From assembly GCA_017524385.1 (NCBI GenBank), contig JAFWSS010000095.1:1-48892 (forward strand): DNA of 48,892 nt. The letters are read 5' to 3'. Position numbers and translations under genes: made by a program. The first letter of the stretch is position 1, and each line of letters starts with the position of its first letter. The DNA is from Prevotella sp. (lineage in GTDB: Bacteria; Bacteroidota; Bacteroidia; Bacteroidales; Bacteroidaceae). Shown here piece after piece: positions 7,201-48,892 of this stretch. The notes beneath the pieces were generated by a model. It searched no databases. It was not told the DNA's origin and saw nothing but the letters and a program-made list of their open reading frames with translations.

Positions 7201-7631
7201 CAGGGTATGACAAAATAGCCGTCGGCATTGGTGGTTGCTTGGTTCAGAGTGTCGCGATTGGCAGACAAGAGCACTACGGTGGCGTGGGGTAGGGGACGGC
7301 GACGGGAGTCAAGCACCTGGCCAATGAACCTGATGGTGTCTTTCTGTGTGCATTCCACGAAGATATCGGTGTTCAGTTGGGTGACACGTACGGGGAGGTT
7401 GCCACAAACTTGTTTCACGGCTTGCAGGACGGTGGCGTCCTGTATGTTTGCCGTCACTATGAAATCCTCCAGCTCTTGATAGATGAAATTGACAGTGATG
7501 GTGTCGCAATCGTTTTCGAGGGTGAGCAACGCATCTGAGAGTGAGATATCATTGAATTCATGGCTGACCGTTTGTGCATGGGATAGGGCCAGGCAGAAGA
7601 GTGATAGTAACAAAAAGAAGTTCCTTTTCAT
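1254..7631 (-). CDS. large alpha-2-macroglobulin-family protein with STN and SusC-type N-terminal module
   Basis: This 2125-residue exported protein belongs to the bacterial alpha-2-macroglobulin/MG2 superfamily, thought to act at the cell envelope as a protease trap or surface scaffold. Domains in order: signal peptide (1-20, ending SHAQ), STN domain (~25-93), carboxypeptidase-regulatory-like domain (~101-165), helical region, MG2 domain (~672-790, INIYTDRAIYRPGQ), further MG domains, an embedded second regulatory-like domain (~1221-1295, GYLMGIVVDETGEPVIGAT) with the SusC-like box EEVVVVGYGTQKKK (~1301), the A2M domain (~1376-1470) and a TED-like helical domain with GGWAWWKGM (~1687). The thioester motif CxEQ expected in the TED was not found, so covalent trapping is unlikely. 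It stands alone with its own promoter. The start at 7631 is supported by the signal peptide. Confidence 0.88.
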   Translation of the reverse strand: MKRNFFLLLSLFCLALSHAQTVSHEFNDISLSDALLTLENDCDTITVNFIYQELEDFIVTANIQDATVLQAVKQVCGNLPVRVTQLNTDIFVECTQKDTIRFIGQVLDSRRRPLPHATVVLLSANRDTLNQATTNADGYFVIPCLERQAFVRVSHPLCDTFEKFCHHDELDVITLTAASVEHPAVDDTVEQTKDPAIHRSYHSLWRQAYKHSVADLPRSQLDVLNTIRTKARKEDNHGMMTAAELMRASIIKELEPDSLPGIVHEFIEEERLAESNNPLLATAYQVILLNMPPVKGIDATQFEPFREKIMTNTPLLAASQAEMFCPLVSIGGDGGIFGNDLLSVVGMQTHNYQLLHDHYGKLGNRRAEMLTALWMLDKNYHDSRGCIISDKHNHYLTQLDSLCTQYADLPECCEIAILRYKAMCEKKDVTVEEKMQYIDTALQRWGEWRNANELRNERAELSEPMMSVEIGEARLLPDSSRVIRFHQVRNVREVTLRISRLDISPTKIQSVAGRELTKYEYRQLLEKTKPVEVATYKKEIHISNDFECVEDSMRMPGLPVGRYLAECYAEGCTFDTLRYQLMVSDVFMLLEPLPKRKTKVVVVRGSTGQPLPGAKVTYYNWKKKKVRTANGKGELILRNKNGGRFHAAVEGDEHAPSATLYSSFSGASWRGKQKRINIYTDRAIYRPGQKVNVAMVAFQNKANKEIISLKKKRLTIHVTDPNYTKVADTTLVTDEYGTASFAFDIPTDRMNGDYRISVSAGRHCHGFQLFKVEEYKIPTFSVELATMAEAEIAGDTILLPGHAKAFSGAQVTHAQVCYTVEQKRGQMTRSMNWNVAFKDTIQTDADGGFKVKVPVVVQKVEDTEDQWSFRVKAVVTDLGGESHEAEQTISMKDKERLFNILLQEKKMEMGKPMAVTLDMKDRWMEPVDTIVEYYVDTPDEKHTAKTNESIQLVECEALRLSGVHTLYAVCGNDTTKTQFFVVNYDDVRPGTFTKECFAQSATRFPDDGGEVRVQLGTSMEDVYVVYDIFADNKHLERGSFTLSNQMYNRKFVYQPEYGSGLCLTFAFVKDGVVYTEKALIEAPLTDHSLQMKWETFRDRLTPGQKEEWTLRITHPDGTPAKAQLLSVLYDAALDKLKEHDWWANSQMLGFHTSNTEWHYDRIGLSSGKMQPKVRLRKPVKPLDFSHFNYDLLSMQANETTLAEIAKVSKVMNKGKRRYGKRGYLMGIVVDETGEPVIGATIIPSRSGKGTVTNIDGEFEIKTTEDAYVKVSYIGYLSQTVMIHNGTYVVIELTEDNNALEEVVVVGYGTQKKKTLTGSIRVRGASSEKFSAPVIKYDQEVKALPADDDEQKEANADILMTLRENMEETAFFQPSLVSSDDGMMKIRFTLPESVTTWRFLGMAHDQDMNIGRMDCTAIAQKDVMVQPNMPRFVRKGDHATIVARIANISATPRDGTAEMVLSDAETGEVVYTEKKDFHIDGNTTTSIPFSFIPGENSEMLTCRTMVSGTNFSDGEQRWLPVLPDREMTIDSHVFTLHAPGQTVVDVDSMMTGSLPSSRKMMIEYTETPSWMMVLAMPTYTARPNDDAISQAVALYANIVGGSIMNASPSTMQRLRQWDDKDTSRNPFLSELEKNEEIKEMLLRETPWTISAQSETSMRRSLVEFFDQQTMKKRIDKATSRLKDLQCSDGGWAWWKGMPSSEYATLAVMETLARLHANLTTSLNKSGVKYDLERMLEKGMQYLDKVAVEQVFEMKEDEKTLVEANKKPRSTRSATILLPKEELLHYLYISSLLDNHPDSDVLDAREYLLDYVRNKNLDLTIYGKAVFAVIMAKNGQEEKAHDYLKSLKEYAVTSPDKGMYFETPKAYYSWCDYRIPTVTMAIEALQMVEPGDKETVEQMRKWLLSQKRVQQWDCELNAVNAIQAFFGDDKMEMEERLENRTPATISLGGKAIDTGTAIEGLGYVRMVVTDSVGGKLCFDKKSEQTSWATVSTQSMRRVANIGDASMGMTVKREILYDNTMLKVGDKVKVRITIEADQDYDFVQIVDKRAACMEPVDIISGYRNGCYQVKKDNVTQYYFTRLRKGTTTIETEYYIDRAGQYETGTCTAQCAYSPAFSARAASITVDVE

Positions 7632-7679
7632 ATTTAGTCAGGAAAATGAGTTGGAATGAAAGGTATTGCCTTAATTATG

Positions 7680-7708
7680 CAAAATTAATAAAAACATCGT
7701 AATAACAA
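7680..7708 (-). promoter_or_regulatory. promoter of the macroglobulin-like gene
   Basis: TTG (7708-7706), 18 bp, TAATTTTG (7687-7680) on the minus strand. The -7 box matches TAnnTTTG and lies about 50 bp upstream of the start at 7631. Confidence 0.55.
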
Positions 7709-7807
7709 TAATGTAAGGAGAAAAAAATACATATCATCCTATTTTCATAGGTTGTGACTTGTTTGGTAATTCTTGCGTTTGCGATTCAGCTAATATTTTT
7801 CATGCTG

Positions 7808-7840
7808 TTGTAAGGATAATGATTAATTTTTGTATCTTTG
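7808..7840 (+). promoter_or_regulatory. promoter of the small secreted protein gene
   Basis: TTG (7808-7810) and TATCTTTG (7833-7840) with 22 bp between them. The -7 box is a perfect Bacteroidota match; the spacing is slightly long. The gene begins 33 bp downstream of the box. It is divergent from the macroglobulin promoter. Confidence 0.6.
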
Positions 7841-7873
7841 CAGCGTATTTATATCAACCTAAAATATGAAATC

Positions 7874-8473
7874 ATGAAAAGAATATCATTTGCAATCTTC
7901 TTTGCCTGCTGCACATTGGCACTGGCGGCGCAAGACGCCATCAGGGTAAACTATCAGGGAGCGAGACCTACCATCACCGACTTCGCATGGGCTTACCTCT
8001 TCTCTGACGAAGACGACGAAGATGAATGTGATCAAGAAGCGACCGCGGGAATAGAGCTAGCCTTGTCCAACTATCGTCAAGGTCTTCCACAAGAGGAAGG
8101 GACTACACTCACCGTTGACGAGAAAAACGGCTACATACTTTATGAGTGGAAATATGAAAACACCTTGGTGAGGATTGAGATGTGCTATTGGAATGAGTCT
8201 GACCAAAAGCACAAGTTGTTTGCCTACAGTTCCTGGTTTTATGAAAATGGCAAACCGGGGTTAGGACAATACGATGGACTTACATTCTACCGGTATACCA
8301 ACGCTACGAAGAAGATGAGCATGTGTGAGGCACCGGGCTTCGATGTGGAATATTATAATACCACCTACACTCTGCCACGTGTAGGGAAGAACATCATCGT
8401 CAACAAGTGGGATGACAAAGGAAAGAAGACACAGAAGACATTGAAATGGAACGGACGAAAATTCACCAAGTGA
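7874..8473 (+). CDS. secreted protein of unknown function, 199 aa
   Basis: I do not recognise a family. The protein has a clear signal peptide (MKRISFAIFFACCTLALAAQ, cleavage after AAQ or ALA), an acidic patch near residue 45 (DEDDEDECD) and a mature part rich in Tyr and Trp (e.g. YILYEWKYEN, FAYSSWFYENG), which suggests a compact beta-rich fold. It is probably periplasmic or outer-membrane associated, since there is no lipobox. The ATG at 7874 is chosen over the in-frame TTG at 7838 because the latter lies inside the -7 box and the signal peptide begins at 7874. The gene is monocistronic: it has its own promoter upstream and a strong terminator 43 bp after the stop. Confidence 0.8.
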   Translation: MKRISFAIFFACCTLALAAQDAIRVNYQGARPTITDFAWAYLFSDEDDEDECDQEATAGIELALSNYRQGLPQEEGTTLTVDEKNGYILYEWKYENTLVRIEMCYWNESDQKHKLFAYSSWFYENGKPGLGQYDGLTFYRYTNATKKMSMCEAPGFDVEYYNTTYTLPRVGKNIIVNKWDDKGKKTQKTLKWNGRKFTK

Positions 8474-8516
8474 ATCTTTCCATAATTCCATAATGCAATT
8501 TCAACCTACAATCATC

Positions 8517-8540
8517 AGCTCACCTTCGGGTGGGCTTTTT
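8517..8540 (+). terminator. intrinsic terminator after the small secreted protein
   Basis: AGCTCACC, loop TTCG, GGTGGGCT (one G-T pair), then TTTTT. An 8-bp stem closed by a UUCG tetraloop with a T-tract is a textbook intrinsic terminator. Confidence 0.85.
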
Positions 8541-8674
8541 GATTGTGGTTATGTAGTAAATCATTTTTCGCTAAGAAGGACAATCAGAGGCCAAGGTGGG
8601 TGGTTTTGAAGAAGTTGATGTTGCGTGATTCTCTCTAATTATGGAAGTAGGGTGTCCATTTTGTAATCTGTTTT

Positions 8675-8740
8675 TTCATAAAGATTACGTTTCGCCTTCA
8701 TAAAGAATACGTTTCGCTTTCATAAAGAATACGTTTCGCT
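8675..8740. repeat. three tandem copies of a 22-bp repeat
   Basis: Units at 8675-8696, 8697-8718 and 8719-8740, each of the form TTCATAAAG.(A/T)TACGTTTCGC plus two bases. Copies 2 and 3 are identical; copy 1 differs at two positions. It lies in a gene-free stretch (8541-9092) that otherwise holds only other repeats. Confidence 0.9.
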
Positions 8741-8781
8741 TTCTTTGCCAAGAGGTCTCGTCCAACAATCGGTGCGCATAT

Positions 8782-8803
8782 CCCCTCCCCTCGAGGGGAG
8801 GGG
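8782..8803. repeat. perfect 22-bp GC-rich palindrome
   Basis: CCCCTCCCCTC (8782-8792) is followed without spacer by its exact inverse complement (8793-8803), then a G/T-rich run to 8817. The centre is TCGA. No T-tract follows, and it belongs to a repeat-only spacer, so it is more likely a dispersed repeat than a terminator. Confidence 0.8.
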
Positions 8804-8855
8804 TTGGGGTGGGGTCTTTGAATAAAAGTCGATACAACGAATTGGACATCCTATT

Positions 8856-9023
8856 CAGGAAGTCAAAGTAAGTACGTCAAAATCAGGAAGTCAAAGTAAA
8901 TACTTCAAAATCAGGAAGTCAAAGTAAGTACATCAAAATCTGGAAGTCAAGAAAATATGTCCATATATGGAAGTCAAAGTGAACATACGTCCAAATACTG
9001 AAGTCAAAGTGAACATACGTCCC
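8856..9023. repeat. about six tandem copies of a 28-30-bp repeat
   Basis: Copies start at 8856, 8884, 8912, 8940, 8967 and 8997. The shared core is (G)GAAGTCAAAGT followed by a variable AT-rich part with TAC(G)TC. The first three are exactly 28 bp; the later ones drift to 28-30 bp and change AGTAAGTACGTC to GTGAACATACGTCC. The repeats abut each other, so there are no CRISPR-type spacers. Confidence 0.88.
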
Positions 9024-9092
9024 TTTAACTCCCCTTTAACTCCTTTTTAACTCCTCTTTAACTCCTGATAAAACTCCTGATAAAACTCCTCT
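9018..9092. repeat. CTTTAACTCC repeat array, copy 1
   Basis: A run of ~10-14-bp units (CCCTTTAACTC, CTTTTTAACTC, CTGATAAAACTC) directly abuts the stop codon of the minus-strand gene at 9093. The same unit makes up the arrays at 40970-41180 and, in altered form, 11451-11489. Confidence 0.88.
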
Positions 9093-9461
9093 TTAGTTTA
9101 ATATGTCTATCATCCCGGTCAGATGCCCGTTTTCATCTTCCTGCACTTTGATGGATGCGTAGAGTTGATTGAGGATTTTGATGATGTGTAGCGCATCGGC
9201 AATGGTTGATAAGGTTAGACGTACCATGAAGGGTCTGCCTTTGTCGCTAAGCAAAGTATATGTCGTCTCGGGATTGGAATGGCGGATGCCATTCCTTTCC
9301 TCCATCACAAACCCGATAAGTCTTTTTATGGCATCAGGGTCGGCTTGGCATTTCTCAGCCACGGCGCAGGCGATGAGAAATTTCGGGGTGGTGACTTTCA
9401 ACTCTTTCTCCCCCTCCAGGATGGCTTGCTCCAGAGGTTTAAAGCTATGTATTTCTGTCAT
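9093..9461 (-). CDS. hypothetical protein, 122 aa
   Basis: I do not recognise a family. The frame has an ordinary composition for a soluble, mostly helical cytoplasmic protein with no signal peptide or membrane segment. Features visible: an N-terminal helix region (FKPLEQAILEGEKELKVTTP), a segment FLIACAVAEKCQADPDAIKRLIGF (split here at ~residues 29-52), and a C-terminal helix-rich stretch (STIADALHIIKILNQLY). The start ATG at 9461 follows an AT-rich leader with no clear Shine-Dalgarno, which is usual for Bacteroidota. Its 3' end touches the CTTTAACTCC repeat array. It has no obvious operon partner: the next gene upstream on the same strand ends 205 bp away. Confidence 0.65.
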   Translation of the reverse strand: MTEIHSFKPLEQAILEGEKELKVTTPKFLIACAVAEKCQADPDAIKRLIGFVMEERNGIRHSNPETTYTLLSDKGRPFMVRLTLSTIADALHIIKILNQLYASIKVQEDENGHLTGMIDILN

Positions 9462-9666
9462 TTATTTGTTTTTAGTGTTAGGCGAATTAGATGTTTTTAC
9501 ATATTCTTTTTACAATGCAGCGGATAGGGGTAAATGACACAATGCCATTTGAAACATTAACGGCACAATCCTCTTTTTATTATGTTTGATGGTGTGCATT
9601 TTCAAGTGGTTTCATAAAAAAAGGAAAGGCAATGGCAAAGGGTGTTTTTCGCCCATCGTCTATGAT

Positions 9667-11448
9667 TTATCGTTTGGCTGCATGTCTTGCCGCTGCCTGT
9701 CCCGCCAGACGACCGTTGACAACGATGTCTGCAACGCCGTTGCCTCCAAGACGGTTGGCGCCATGCAGTCCACCTGTCACCTCGCCAGCAGCAAACAATC
9801 CTGGAATGGGGGCACCGTCGGTCTTGAGCACCTGGGTTTCGGTATTGACGCTGAGGCCTCCCATCGTATGGTGGATGGCAGGCTTCACCCTTACTGCATA
9901 AAATGGGGCGTTTTCCAATGTAGCGGTCATTTCTGTGGCACTGCGACCAAAGTCGTTGTCTATGCCTGCTTTCTGCTGGGCATTGTAGCGTGCCAGGCTT
10001 TTCGTGAGACTTTCTGTTGGAATGCCAGTGAGAGAGGCTAGTTCCGCGATGTTCTGACCCTGTATGAGCAGATGCTGGTTGGAATATGTCTCGATGGATG
10101 CCAGCGATTGGCGTACGCCTTGGTCGAAGATGAGGTAGGCTTCTCCCGACTGCTGTCTGAGTATGGCTGCTGACACTACGTCGCGGGTGTCCATTTCATT
10201 GCAGAAGCGTTTGCCGGCATGGTTTACGAGGATGGCTCCGTTGCCACGCACAGCTTCAGTGATTAGGATGTGATTGACGGCTTCTGCCGTGGGGTGGATT
10301 TGTATGTTTGCCATCTGGATGGTAGCACCGCTGAGAGATTTAACCCAGTCGAAGGCGTCACCCGTGGCGCCGGGATGATTGAGCGTTGCAAACCCGGAGA
10401 GTGAGGGTTGCAGGCGCGTCACCATTTCCAAGTTGGCTCCAAAGCCTCCTGTGGCGATGATGACGGCTTTTGCTTTCAGCGTGTAGGTGCTGCCGTCAGC
10501 ATTCTGAACCTTGACTCCCGTCACCGTGCCATTGGATGATAACAACCCTACCACTTTGTTTGATGTGCGTATTTCAATGTTCTGATGTGCTGCAGCTTCT
10601 TTGAGCACCTTCATCAGATGCGGCCCGATGGCAGTGCCTCCTTTGGGACGGTGCGTCCTCTTCACACTGCTGCCTCCCATAAGTCCCACGTCGCTCAAGT
10701 CGGCTCCCATTCCTGTCAGCCATGAGATGGTGGCTGGCGCATGGTCGACGAAGTTCCACACCAATGAGGATATGTTCTCGTTTTTGCCGCCTCGCATGGT
10801 GTCATCATAAAATAGCTGTTTGCTGTCCTCGATGCCGTGCGATTTTTGCACGTCGGTCTCCGCGGCATTGATGCCTCCTGTGGAGTAGTTGGTGTTTCCG
10901 CCGATGATGCCTTGTTTCTCCAGCACGATGATATTCATGTCGGCGGTTTCTGCGGCAGCCACTGCCGCAGAAAGTCCTGCTCCTCCGGCTCCCACCACAA
11001 CAATGTCGCAGGTGCCGTCCTTGTAGGTCTTTGCACTGTTCGTCTGCTTGCCCATGGATGCCATGATTGCCATATTGATGGCATCGACAACACCTGTGGA
11101 AGTCAGTGTGGCTCCCGTCACGCCATCCACCTCCACACTCATCGTATCCTGTTTTCCTACTGCATGGTTCAGAATGGTGTTGATGGCATCTTGGGCGAAT
11201 ACTGATTCAGACTGGCTGACGACAATGGCTTGGACGATTTTCCCATCCTCCACCACGATTTTAGCGATGATGTTTCCACTGCGTCCCTCGCCGCTGCCGG
11301 TCCACTCTCCGTCACGCAATCCTTCTATTACAGGCTCGGTGGCATCGTCGTCGTCGGAACATGATGTAAAAGCCATGATACTGCATAATATCAAGATGGT
11401 GGCAAGCACCCAATGACCAAACTGTCTAATATGATTCATGTTTTGCAT
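9667..11448 (-). CDS. flavocytochrome-c-type FAD reductase lipoprotein with FMN-binding domain
   Basis: This 593-residue protein resembles extracellular fumarate/urocanate-reductase-like flavoproteins that pass electrons to an organic acceptor. Order: lipoprotein signal (IMAFTSC, Cys at ~30) followed by SDDDD, an acidic stretch of the kind that directs Bacteroidota lipoproteins to the surface; FMN-binding domain (~45-125) with TGATLTS, whose Thr116 (counted from 11448) is the expected site of covalent FMN attachment by ApbE; FAD_binding_2 domain (~150-590) with dinucleotide motif VVVGAGGAGLSAA and later GGNTNYSTGG and HHTMGGL. The substrate cannot be told from sequence. No haem motif is present, so electrons must come from a separate donor; no apbE gene is in the window. 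An alternative ATG lies at 11439. A short repeat array occupies the leader. Confidence 0.88.
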   Translation of the reverse strand: MQNMNHIRQFGHWVLATILILCSIMAFTSCSDDDDATEPVIEGLRDGEWTGSGEGRSGNIIAKIVVEDGKIVQAIVVSQSESVFAQDAINTILNHAVGKQDTMSVEVDGVTGATLTSTGVVDAINMAIMASMGKQTNSAKTYKDGTCDIVVVGAGGAGLSAAVAAAETADMNIIVLEKQGIIGGNTNYSTGGINAAETDVQKSHGIEDSKQLFYDDTMRGGKNENISSLVWNFVDHAPATISWLTGMGADLSDVGLMGGSSVKRTHRPKGGTAIGPHLMKVLKEAAAHQNIEIRTSNKVVGLLSSNGTVTGVKVQNADGSTYTLKAKAVIIATGGFGANLEMVTRLQPSLSGFATLNHPGATGDAFDWVKSLSGATIQMANIQIHPTAEAVNHILITEAVRGNGAILVNHAGKRFCNEMDTRDVVSAAILRQQSGEAYLIFDQGVRQSLASIETYSNQHLLIQGQNIAELASLTGIPTESLTKSLARYNAQQKAGIDNDFGRSATEMTATLENAPFYAVRVKPAIHHTMGGLSVNTETQVLKTDGAPIPGLFAAGEVTGGLHGANRLGGNGVADIVVNGRLAGQAAARHAAKR

Positions 11449-45661: not shown

Positions 45662-46372
45662 ATGGAGATACAAGAATTCATCAGCAATTATCAAGAGGCG
45701 TTTGGGCTTCAGGCACCATTGCCTTTGCTGTTCGGATACAGTGAACATCCTGTAGCCAAGACAGAAAAAATCGGTGGTTGTTTCTTCAAGGGACTGCAGG
45801 CAGCCAGGGAGGGAACACCGCTTAGTCTCAGCGTTGATGTCATCGGTTGCGGCGGTGGCAAACTCTATACCGGTTTTTCCGACATGCCTGAGCGGGTGCC
45901 TGCCTTTGTGTCGTTGAAGGAGAAATACAAGAGGACTCCCGAGATGGTGCAGGATTACATCCAAGGTCTTGGGATGAAGAGAGCAGGGAAACCTTATCTG
46001 AACTTTGTCAGGATAGACAAGGCCACGTCTTTTGAGGGCACGGAAGGCGTGCTTTTCTTTGCCACTCCCGACATGCTGTCGGGGTTGTGTGGATGGGCTT
46101 TCTACGACAGCAACGAGCCGGATGCCGTGTTGTCGCTTTTCGGTTCGGGCTGCAGCACCGTGGTGTCAATGACTGTCGTGGAGAACGAAAGACAGGGACA
46201 CCGTTGCTTCCTGGGGCTATTCGACCCCTCGGTGCGTCCTTGGGTCGGGAAGGATGAACTGAGCTTCACCATCCCTTTCAGCCGGTTCGTTCCGATGATG
46301 AACAGTATGAGAGACTGCTTTTTGTTTGGCTCGCATGCATGGGAGAAAATCAAGAAAAGGATGGGGGAGTAA
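45662..46372 (+). CDS. DUF169 family protein, 236 aa
   Basis: A soluble cytoplasmic protein of the DUF169 (COG2043) family; its role is unknown. Family features seen: an N-terminal helix (QEFISNYQEAFGLQAPLPLL), GYSEHPV with KIGGCFFKGLQAAREG, the Cys/Gly-rich turn VIGCGGGKLYTGF, PEMVQDYIQGLGMKR and VEGVLFFATPDMLSGL-type strand (TEGVLFFATPDMLSGL). Several conserved Cys (CFF, GCGGG, LCGW, GCST) might bind a metal or cofactor. The ATG at 45662 is preferred. Convergent with the PARG-domain gene; a weak stem (46396-46411, GGTC...GACC followed by AAGTATTTTT) lies between the two stops. Confidence 0.85.
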   Translation: MEIQEFISNYQEAFGLQAPLPLLFGYSEHPVAKTEKIGGCFFKGLQAAREGTPLSLSVDVIGCGGGKLYTGFSDMPERVPAFVSLKEKYKRTPEMVQDYIQGLGMKRAGKPYLNFVRIDKATSFEGTEGVLFFATPDMLSGLCGWAFYDSNEPDAVLSLFGSGCSTVVSMTVVENERQGHRCFLGLFDPSVRPWVGKDELSFTIPFSRFVPMMNSMRDCFLFGSHAWEKIKKRMGE

Positions 46373-46433: not shown

Positions 46434-48287
46434 TCAAGGTAAGGCTCTATTCCAGAACTCACTTGCATCGCCACCATATTCCTCTGTCAGCAAGGCAAGG
46501 AATAGGAATGTGTCTCTTGTGGAATTGTTGCTGCCATACTGTTCGGGCTCTCGATTCACTTTCAGCTGCGTTATGTGACATTTGCCTCCATGCTCCTCAT
46601 ACCTCGCCTCGAAGATGCAGATACCCGACCAGCTCCTGTAATAGCGGATGGTCGTCTCGTCGCAATACATGAACCAGTGGTCTTCCATTGCTTCGGGAAT
46701 GTGACCGTATTTCACAATCTGCATTTCAGCAGTTGAAATCGTGTAGGACATAGGGAGGACAACATGGCTGTCGGGCATTGGCAATGTTTTCCAACTGTCT
46801 TTTGTCGCCACCTTGGTCTTTTTCGGTATGGGATTTTCGCCATTGAAGCGTTTGGCGGAATTGCCAGCACCCATTTTCCACATCAGAAAAGCCTTCTTCG
46901 ACTCCTCCGTCAGTTGGGGTTCCTCCAAGGCAGAGAACTCATCTACAAAAGACTTGTAGTTTCCCTCGGGATTGTGGCTTCGGCGAGCATTGTTGTCGTC
47001 AAGGATGGCAAATACGATTATCTTGTATTTTTTCTTGAACTCAGGTTCATCCATCACCTCATGGAACAGGCGTGCCATATGGCGGGGGGGATTGCGGAAA
47101 GCACCGCAGCCCAGGGCGCCCAGCACCAACGCGTCGTGCCCATGTGCCAGTGCGATGCGGAAGATGGTGCGGATTTTGTTCTTGACACCTCCCACCAGAT
47201 GACTTGCTATCATTCCGTCGGGCGTCAGTTCTGGACGGTTCATGCCTGCCACAGTGATGAACGAGAGGGCTACTGGGGTGTCCAGTAGGGCGTAGCCGTT
47301 TTGTTCGCTCTCCCTGAAGTAGATGGCGCCAGGGGTGTATACGCCGCCGAAGTTCTTGTCAAGGGGATATTGGTGTGCTGATGGCTTGATGCCGTATTGT
47401 CGAGCGTAGGGCGCGAACTGATAGAGTGATCGAAACAGGTTGGTCCTGCGAAACAGTGTCTCTTCCTGTGCTCCGGCACCGTTGACCACACCTCCGCCCG
47501 GATTGAGCCGATTGGCCATGTTCAATATGGCAGGATTGTAGCCTTCTTCTATCAGTTGTACTCCGGCGTGCAGGCAGTCCATGTCTTTCACTTCGACTAT
47601 CGCTGGCACGCTGTATTGTGGCGTTTCGGGCAGATGAATCTCGCTCTCATAGAATGCCGTGCCGCGCATCATGGCATCATCGGAAGGCAAGATGACTTCC
47701 TTTCCTTCCTCCGTAGTGTAGCGGCCTTGGTTTACAATCTCTACAGTGTTGCGGAACTCCTTGGCGCGCAGTTCCCTCACCTGGTCGATGGCTGCTTCGT
47801 CATCTTTCTTCACCTTATTTATCAAGTTACGATATTTTTCCAAGAAATCTTTCTCGGCATCCCAGGTGATGGTTGATGCTGGTGCGCTTTCTTGGGAACT
47901 TGAAATTACCTCCACGAAATCCTTTGGCAGGATGACGTTTTCCAAGTCGATGGCCTCCTTGAACAAAGGGGCTATCTCCTCTATGCTGAATCCCGCTATC
48001 CCACAGCCAATGCGTGTCACGAGGAACTTGTATTCACGATGTATGAACGCGAACTCTATGAACTCGTCCACGTAGGGTTTGATGGTTTCCACGCCGCCCT
48101 GCATGGTGGGTATGGCATAACTCTGCCCTTGCAACCCCACGCCTTGCCCCCATGTCGCGCCGAAGCGGGAATAGGCCAGGCGGGCCGCGCCGCCACCATG
48201 TGCACCAGCGAGGTTGCTGCCAAACACGAAAATCTCATTCGGCTTCAAAGCCATTATTCTCTCCGGGGTGTATTCTCTCTTGTACAT
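46434..48287 (-). CDS. three-part protein with microbial poly(ADP-ribose) glycohydrolase domain
   Basis: A 617-residue cytoplasmic protein. Part 1 (~1-115): KPNEIFVFGSNLAGAHGGGA, GQGVGLQGQSYAIPTMQGG and FLVTRIGCGIAGFSIEEIAP, the macro-like domain often found alone as A1S_2505-type phage-associated protein. A charged helical linker follows (~125-175). Part 2 (~175-430): the DUF2263/TIGR02452 PARG domain with FRNTVEIVNQGRYTTEEGKE, the ADP-ribose loop NMANRLNPGGGVVNGAGAQE and ALGCGAFRNPP; the Gln-Glu pair of the catalytic loop is present, so hydrolysis of ADP-ribose links is expected. Part 3 (~495-617): MEDHWFMYCDETTIRYYRSW, GICIFEARY, then TFLFLALLTEEYGGDASEFW, of unknown role. ATG 48287 is preferred to a TTG at 48302. 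It lies 15 bp after a 35-codon ORF and shares its promoter. Confidence 0.87.
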   Translation of the reverse strand: MYKREYTPERIMALKPNEIFVFGSNLAGAHGGGAARLAYSRFGATWGQGVGLQGQSYAIPTMQGGVETIKPYVDEFIEFAFIHREYKFLVTRIGCGIAGFSIEEIAPLFKEAIDLENVILPKDFVEVISSSQESAPASTITWDAEKDFLEKYRNLINKVKKDDEAAIDQVRELRAKEFRNTVEIVNQGRYTTEEGKEVILPSDDAMMRGTAFYESEIHLPETPQYSVPAIVEVKDMDCLHAGVQLIEEGYNPAILNMANRLNPGGGVVNGAGAQEETLFRRTNLFRSLYQFAPYARQYGIKPSAHQYPLDKNFGGVYTPGAIYFRESEQNGYALLDTPVALSFITVAGMNRPELTPDGMIASHLVGGVKNKIRTIFRIALAHGHDALVLGALGCGAFRNPPRHMARLFHEVMDEPEFKKKYKIIVFAILDDNNARRSHNPEGNYKSFVDEFSALEEPQLTEESKKAFLMWKMGAGNSAKRFNGENPIPKKTKVATKDSWKTLPMPDSHVVLPMSYTISTAEMQIVKYGHIPEAMEDHWFMYCDETTIRYYRSWSGICIFEARYEEHGGKCHITQLKVNREPEQYGSNNSTRDTFLFLALLTEEYGGDASEFWNRALP

Positions 48288-48302
48288 GATTGTTTCTTTC
48301 AA

Positions 48303-48410
48303 TTACTCATTTGACATTTTTTCCTCTCTTTTTACCATAACCGTCCTCATGCCTCCTCCATAAGCAGGAGCGATGTCGGGAATATTGGTGTAGTATTCTT
48401 TGTCTGTCAT
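48303..48410 (-). CDS. small protein, 35 aa, leader ORF of the PARG operon
   Basis: ATG 48410 to TAA at 48303 encodes MTDKEYYTNIPDIAPAYGGG and MRTVMVKREEKMSNE. It has no signal peptide or known motif. It lies between a good promoter (48469-48499) and the PARG-domain gene, which starts 15 bp later, so it is in the same transcript. The Gly-rich PAYGGGMR turn is somewhat like a nucleotide-binding loop, but this is not enough to assign a role. It could be a real small partner or an upstream ORF that controls translation. Confidence 0.5.
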   Translation of the reverse strand: MTDKEYYTNIPDIAPAYGGGMRTVMVKREEKMSNE

Positions 48411-48720: not shown

Positions 48721-48737
48721 ACCATTTTTTTGCTTGG

Positions 48738-48892
48738 CGCCAAGAATGTTCATCGGGATTTGCAATCCCGATGGAAATAATATCAGGATTTGCAATCCGC
48801 TAGAATCGTCATTATCAGCGCCAAGAATGTTCATCGGGATTTGCAATCCCGATGGAAATAATATCAGGATTTGTAATCCGATAAAATCGTCA
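48738..48892. repeat. 81-bp tandem repeat with GGATTTGCAATCC hairpins, runs off the window
   Basis: Two copies (48738-48818 and 48819-48892, cut by the window end). Each has GCCAAGAATGTTC, then the perfect hairpin CATCGGGATT-TGC-AATCCCGATG (48751-48773 in copy 1), then a second weaker hairpin (AGGATTTG(C/T)AATCCG) and AATCGTCA. Same family as 18175-18458. Confidence 0.9.

Follow-up and report, generated by a model that had tools for sequence, protein, structure and literature searches.

A Prevotella protein fusing a macro domain, a PARG domain and a recurrent third domain: a candidate host-encoded eraser of ADP-ribosylation

Introduction

Predicted ARG-centric host systems, which would undo viral ADP-ribosylation, are described in section 3.8 of PMC9503650 as comprising an eraser, an ADP-ribose-sensing NUDIX or WYL repressor, a phosphatase or nucleotidase, a chaperone, and extra Macro or NADAR domains, and regulators of the NrtR type, which sense ADP-ribose, mark such predicted systems there. 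Among the erasers of ADP-ribosylation, microbial PARGs are characterized in section 9 of PMC7050489 as strict exo-hydrolases having GGGx{6,8}QEE as the catalytic motif and G[AV][FY] as the diphosphate loop. The bacterial PARGs SCO0909 and DRB0099 reverse the RNA ADP-ribosylation by RhsP2 in vitro and PARGs of the same type protect E. coli, the physiological roles of bacterial PARGs being described there as unknown (PMC11833690). In the macro domain of DarG, K80 is the catalytic lysine (PMC5179494). Herein, we analyzed a protein gene at 46434-48302 on the minus strand of contig JAFWSS010000095.1 of Prevotella sp., a rumen-type bacterium (assembly GCA_017524385.1). The window, i.e., the stretch of DNA analyzed, is this whole contig of 48,892 nucleotides (G000:C99), which belongs to a 5.05-Mb genome of 272 contigs.

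Sequence comparison together with structure prediction showed that the gene product combines a predicted macro domain, a predicted PARG domain and a third domain found repeatedly together with different, mutually unrelated ADP-ribose-related domains. With about even confidence, we propose that it is a host-encoded eraser of ADP-ribosylation composed of exchangeable modules.

Results

The gene is a single frame of 622 codons when counted from the TTG at 48302, along which the residues are numbered herein. Its probable start is, however, the ATG at 48287 (617 residues), at the equivalent of which the homologues begin. The nearest full-length relative (G062:C61) is 71% identical, and the closest relatives are found in metagenome-assembled genomes (MAGs) of Prevotellaceae. 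As proposed in a preliminary description of the locus, three parts are fused in one chain, namely an A1S_2505-type domain, a microbial PARG domain and an unknown C-terminal domain.

The middle part (residues 184-440; 46983-47753, minus strand) matched the microbial-type PARG families TIGR02452 (residues 184-438, E = 9.1e-44, 150 bits against a cut-off of 50 in NCBIfam) and PF10021 (PARG_cat_microb; residues 185-331, E = 5.7e-31, 108.3 bits against a cut-off of 23.5 in Pfam), and TcPARG (3sig) aligned over residues 184-437 (E = 4.8e-24). The intact QE loop claimed earlier was found as GGGVVNGAGAQEE at residues 269-281 (47460-47498, minus strand), which has the form GGG-x7-QEE, and the G-A-F diphosphate loop is present in the translation as GCGAFRNP. 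The 3sij chain carries a substitution of the second glutamate, at the site equivalent to E281 of the present protein. Inspection of the translations by eye found the PARG motif complete in all six PARG-bearing relatives among the 28 loci described below. While this part resembles the microbial PARGs (TcPARG, SCO0909 and DRB0099) in the GGGx7QEE loop, the GAF loop and the full-length domain match, it differs from them in its position between a macro domain in front and an unannotated domain behind. It is apparently a PARG eraser with a complete catalytic loop and a putative hydrolase.

The N-terminal part (residues 6-140; 47883-48287, minus strand), separated from the PARG domain by a linker of residues 141-183 (47754-47882, minus strand), matched A1S_2505_Nterm (NF049995) at residues 24-129 with an E value of 2.2e-45 and 153.4 bits against the curated NCBIfam cut-off of 45. 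Although sequence searches of Pfam and the PDB gave no match above chance for the A1S_2505 family, both hhalign and structure prediction yielded the macro fold on which the preliminary description had made its macro-like assignment depend. The hhalign probability was 96.9 against 62 macro domains of the ALC1/DarG type, a class assigned by motif, and 0.5 against the MacroD type, the yardstick being a value of 89.8 for MacroD against ALC1/DarG. The part shares with the ALC1-like macro domains (TARG1 and DarG) the fold, an Asn with a glycine-rich first loop, the P-T-K/M position and the G-C-G-x-A-G loop, but it is shorter, carries an invariant His at residue 35 and has no transferase partner seen. 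Moreover, the hhalign alignment placed Met67 (48102-48104, minus strand) at the site of the catalytic lysine of DarG and TARG1, and the lysine of a TARG1/DarG-type hydrolase is thus not found. Possessing a macro fold without this lysine, part 1 is apparently reader-like according to the models. The earlier idea of two ADP-ribose-type pockets, one for reading and the other for erasing, accordingly found support in the structure prediction, in the loss of the lysine from part 1 and in the retention of the loop in part 2.

Across 71 aligned domains of the A1S_2505 phage family, to which part 1 is a clear match, the catalytic-lysine position is occupied by K in 37, M in 19, V in 8 and L in 7; from this 71-row alignment, four of the 79 viral A1S loci had been dropped owing to stop codons in the match range, and others as duplicates or hand-chosen near-duplicates. 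The domain was detected in 454 of 50,697 phage records, and phrog_2072 also matches part 1. In the viral collection it mostly stands alone, since 57 of the 79 ORFs (open reading frames) bearing it are shorter than 200 residues. Elsewhere it is fused to ARH, to DUF1810 and, weakly, to NUDIX. The fusion with DUF1810 (PF08837), a domain of unknown function, in L010, L015 and L022 suggests that DUF1810 also operates in ADP-ribose pathways. Several further arrangements were observed. The domain ends the proteins at L002 (697-1896) and L271 (3835-6470), where an NrtR-type gene lies upstream and the front of the protein appears vWA-like by eye (D-x-S-G-S motif; only a weak DUF562 match in Pfam). It likewise ends ORFs of 373-407 residues at L023, L029, L030, L032 and L033, whose conserved front is sigma-factor-like by eye and had no Pfam match in L023, the one scanned. 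On a viral-collection contig (L137, 3001-3438), it occurs near the end of a very long ORF, after a stretch that looks SLOG-like by eye.

The C-terminal 157 residues (466-622, with a core at 510-612; 46437-46907, minus strand), referred to as the MEDHW domain, matched no family in Pfam, NCBIfam, PHROGs or PADLOC. When searched alone they again gave 0 families, and other members gave only single weak matches (best E values of 0.055 and 0.018). The AF2 (AlphaFold2) model of this part had a predicted local distance difference test score (pLDDT) of 88.7. We collected 28 loci carrying it (281 kb), 26 from MAG or genome contigs and two from the viral collection, among which L059 and L060 have near-identical flanks; the stand-alone L088, five plasmid records and whole-genome loci lie outside this set, and L086 and L087 duplicate L071 and L070 on the same contigs. 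An ADP-ribose-related domain resides in the same ORF as part 3 in 25 of the 28 loci, and an ARH match was obtained in 11. Regarded in the preliminary description as an unknown appendage, this part is the module linking the family. Part 3 occurs in 8 of 399 family genomes (the present genome and one weak match, G487 with E = 2.4e-4, counted), and tblastn at E 0.01 found it in none of the 50,697 phage records. At L071 (4455-5903), on a viral-collection contig, a MacroD-type macro domain, the MEDHW domain and NADAR are united in one protein. In size and in its helix-plus-beta-sheet layout, part 3 is similar to the chaperone family TY-Chap3 (PF22552), which also occurs in ARG-centric systems; the part-3 members scanned had no Pfam TY-Chap match, in a scan with no working positive control (TY-Chap3 in 0 of 395 genomes) and no profile-profile comparison.

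As for the neighbors of the relatives, a local profile search identified an NrtR-type NUDIX gene with a helix-turn-helix (HTH) domain in 7 of the 28 loci, and the two scanned against Pfam (L045 and L048) consisted of NUDIX and NrtR_WHD. The expectation was 0.08 loci, a Poisson value based on 60 related genomes, which total 190.85 Mb by rounded sizes and contain 53 NrtR_WHD matches; the loci were taken as independent, and the observed and expected counts came from two different detectors. NADAR was found in four of the 28 loci (as separate genes in two, in the same chain in two), compared with 4 of the 60 related genomes, the present one included. Other neighbors, in one to four loci each, were an NMNAT-NADAR fusion, GP30.3-NT5C, a sirtuin with HD, TIR (L048, L049 and L056), PP2C (L044, L056, L070 and, weakly, L048), and DUF3990 with HTH-DUF3791. 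An unannotated family of about 179 residues with G-H-G and W-C motifs was also seen in four loci (L045, L048, L056 and L070). The present genome itself carries on contig 27 (L270, 44000-54404; genes at 7455-9779, minus strand) a fusion of an NMNAT-like domain with NADAR, another NADAR and an NrtR-type NUDIX gene, arranged consecutively in the order also seen upstream of part 3 in L048. On contig 191, another A1S fusion has an NrtR-type gene upstream of it.

In the window, no ADP-ribosyltransferase (ART) was recognized by eye among the listed ORFs of at least 120 residues, in agreement with the preliminary description, the Pfam scan having covered five window proteins. A DUF169 (PF02596) gene at 45662-46372 on the plus strand is convergent with the studied gene, and a DUF169 gene is likewise directly downstream of the relative in L061. 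The upstream side had been described as cut off by repeats; it is indeed cut off, not by repeats as such but by the end of the contig, which falls within a pair of 75-base repeat copies (48737-48892). An ORF of 35 codons at 48303-48410 (minus strand), previously regarded as a leader gene, exists but could not be upheld as such. When the 605-base upstream region was shuffled 2000 times, 1071 of the resulting sequences contained a same-strand ATG ORF of at least 35 codons, and tblastn against the collected loci matched only the DNA of the window itself, with other rows at E 0.38 or worse. We judged this ORF to be a chance one outside the system.

Discussion

The components of the relatives match, by analogy, those of the ARG-centric host systems one by one, including an ADP-ribosylglycohydrolase, an NrtR-type NUDIX regulator, a DSP/rhodanese-type phosphatase, an NT5C nucleotidase, and HD, SseB, Macro and NADAR domains, with exchangeable modules and mostly no transferase. 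The studied protein, in contrast, is a PARG with an A1S_2505 macro domain, and the terms "PARG" and "A1S" both occur nowhere in the text of PMC9503650. Its constant third domain is not equated with any family of that paper, although it may overlap TY-Chap1-3 or ARPP, and Bacteroidota is not among the lineages named in its section 3.8. In addition, the six-frame set of the window, which stops on the upstream side, contained no match to ARH or NrtR, while WYL was not searched for. Since neither the glycohydrolase nor the regulator was found in the window with its upstream side cut, we regard the protein as eraser-like but do not file it as a member of the ARG-centric systems.

In the proposed mechanism, the bond cut by the PARG domain would be that at C1'' of ADP-ribose, attached either to RNA (at 2'-OH or phosphate ends) or to protein or poly-ADP-ribose ends. 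The macro domain, in which the TARG1/DarG lysine is missing, would bind the ADP-ribosylated end or the product ADP-ribose but leave it intact. The third domain could act as a constant adaptor through which any such enzyme would reach one shared class of modified macromolecules or partners. In the relatives, the ADP-ribose-sensing NUDIX-HTH repressor would turn on operon expression, and the final processing of the product would fall to NUDIX, NT5C and NADAR. The purpose would be to undo ADP-ribosylation introduced by enzymes of invading phages or by toxins of rivals. This reading draws on the complete PARG motif in the studied protein and its relatives, the activities reported for SCO0909 and DRB0099 and for PARGs of their type, the macro fold, the ADP-ribose-related domains joined to part 3, the NrtR-type genes in 7 of the 28 loci against 0.08 expected, and the ART-like genes near two relatives (L067 and, weakly, L051). 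More tentatively, and with doubt prevailing, we consider part 3 to be a transferable adaptor of ADP-ribose pathways, joined independently to PARG, ALC1-like macro, MacroD, ARH and NADAR, and also to NUDIX, and directing all of them to one kind of ADP-ribosylated target, i.e., a "universal eraser kit" whose only interchangeable component is the eraser.

The preliminary description had left a choice among defense, counter-defense and NAD metabolism, which the neighbors of the relatives (NrtR-type NUDIX, NADAR, NMNAT-NADAR, NT5C, sirtuin and TIR) narrow to the undoing of ADP-ribosylation or the turnover of ADP-ribose in the host. The same neighbors, as well as the NMNAT-NADAR/NADAR/NrtR cassette on another contig of the present genome, would also suit soluble housekeeping, in which the protein clears free ADP-ribose derivatives such as O-acyl-ADP-ribose from sirtuins, ADP-ribose-1''-phosphate or compounds made by TIR enzymes, and supplies NAD recycling under the control of NrtR. 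However, the known targets of PARGs are O-linked chains and ends rather than free ADP-ribose (partly general knowledge, partly section 9 of PMC7050489), and the patchy spread of part 3 over the family genomes would be odd for such a role, which we thus consider rather unlikely. A phage-derived counter-defense gene is a highly improbable origin even though many phages carry the part-1 domain and two part-3 loci come from the viral collection, because part 3 had no match in the phage records searched and no phage genome has so far shown the full architecture; the other 26 loci are on MAG or genome contigs and, by eye, the surroundings in the window are ordinary chromosomal genes.

Another explanation, improbable though less so than the phage origin, is that the protein is the antitoxin of a dedicated toxin-antitoxin pair, like DarG for DarT, whose transferase was lost or lies past the contig end. 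It draws on a DUF3990 ART-like gene with HTH-DUF3791 (E = 2e-34) near an ARH+part-3 gene in L067, and on a weak divergent ART-like gene (E = 3.6e-4, below the Pfam cut-off) in L051, close to a gene with the three-part architecture of the studied protein. At L080 (3980-4351), on the Herpetosiphon plasmid pHAU01, an unannotated ORF consisting of part 3 only directly follows a YD-repeat protein, in the position of an immunity gene. With regard to transferases co-occurring with homologues, for which the preliminary description had proposed a search, such ART-like genes were seen in only two of the 28 loci, in a search that was seeded with those two genes and did not seek other ART families, and none was recognized in the window with its upstream side cut.

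For the host-encoded eraser that we favor, the joining of part 3 to several unrelated ADP-ribose-removing enzymes in the relatives suggests a set of combinable parts for the reversal of ADP-ribose damage. The A1S_2505 family is now assigned a macro fold, within which members with K could catalyze, while those with M, V or L are predicted probably to bind only. A PARG joined in one chain with a macro domain and with a domain uniting unrelated ADP-ribose-related enzymes may offer a concrete way to learn the targets of these enzymes.
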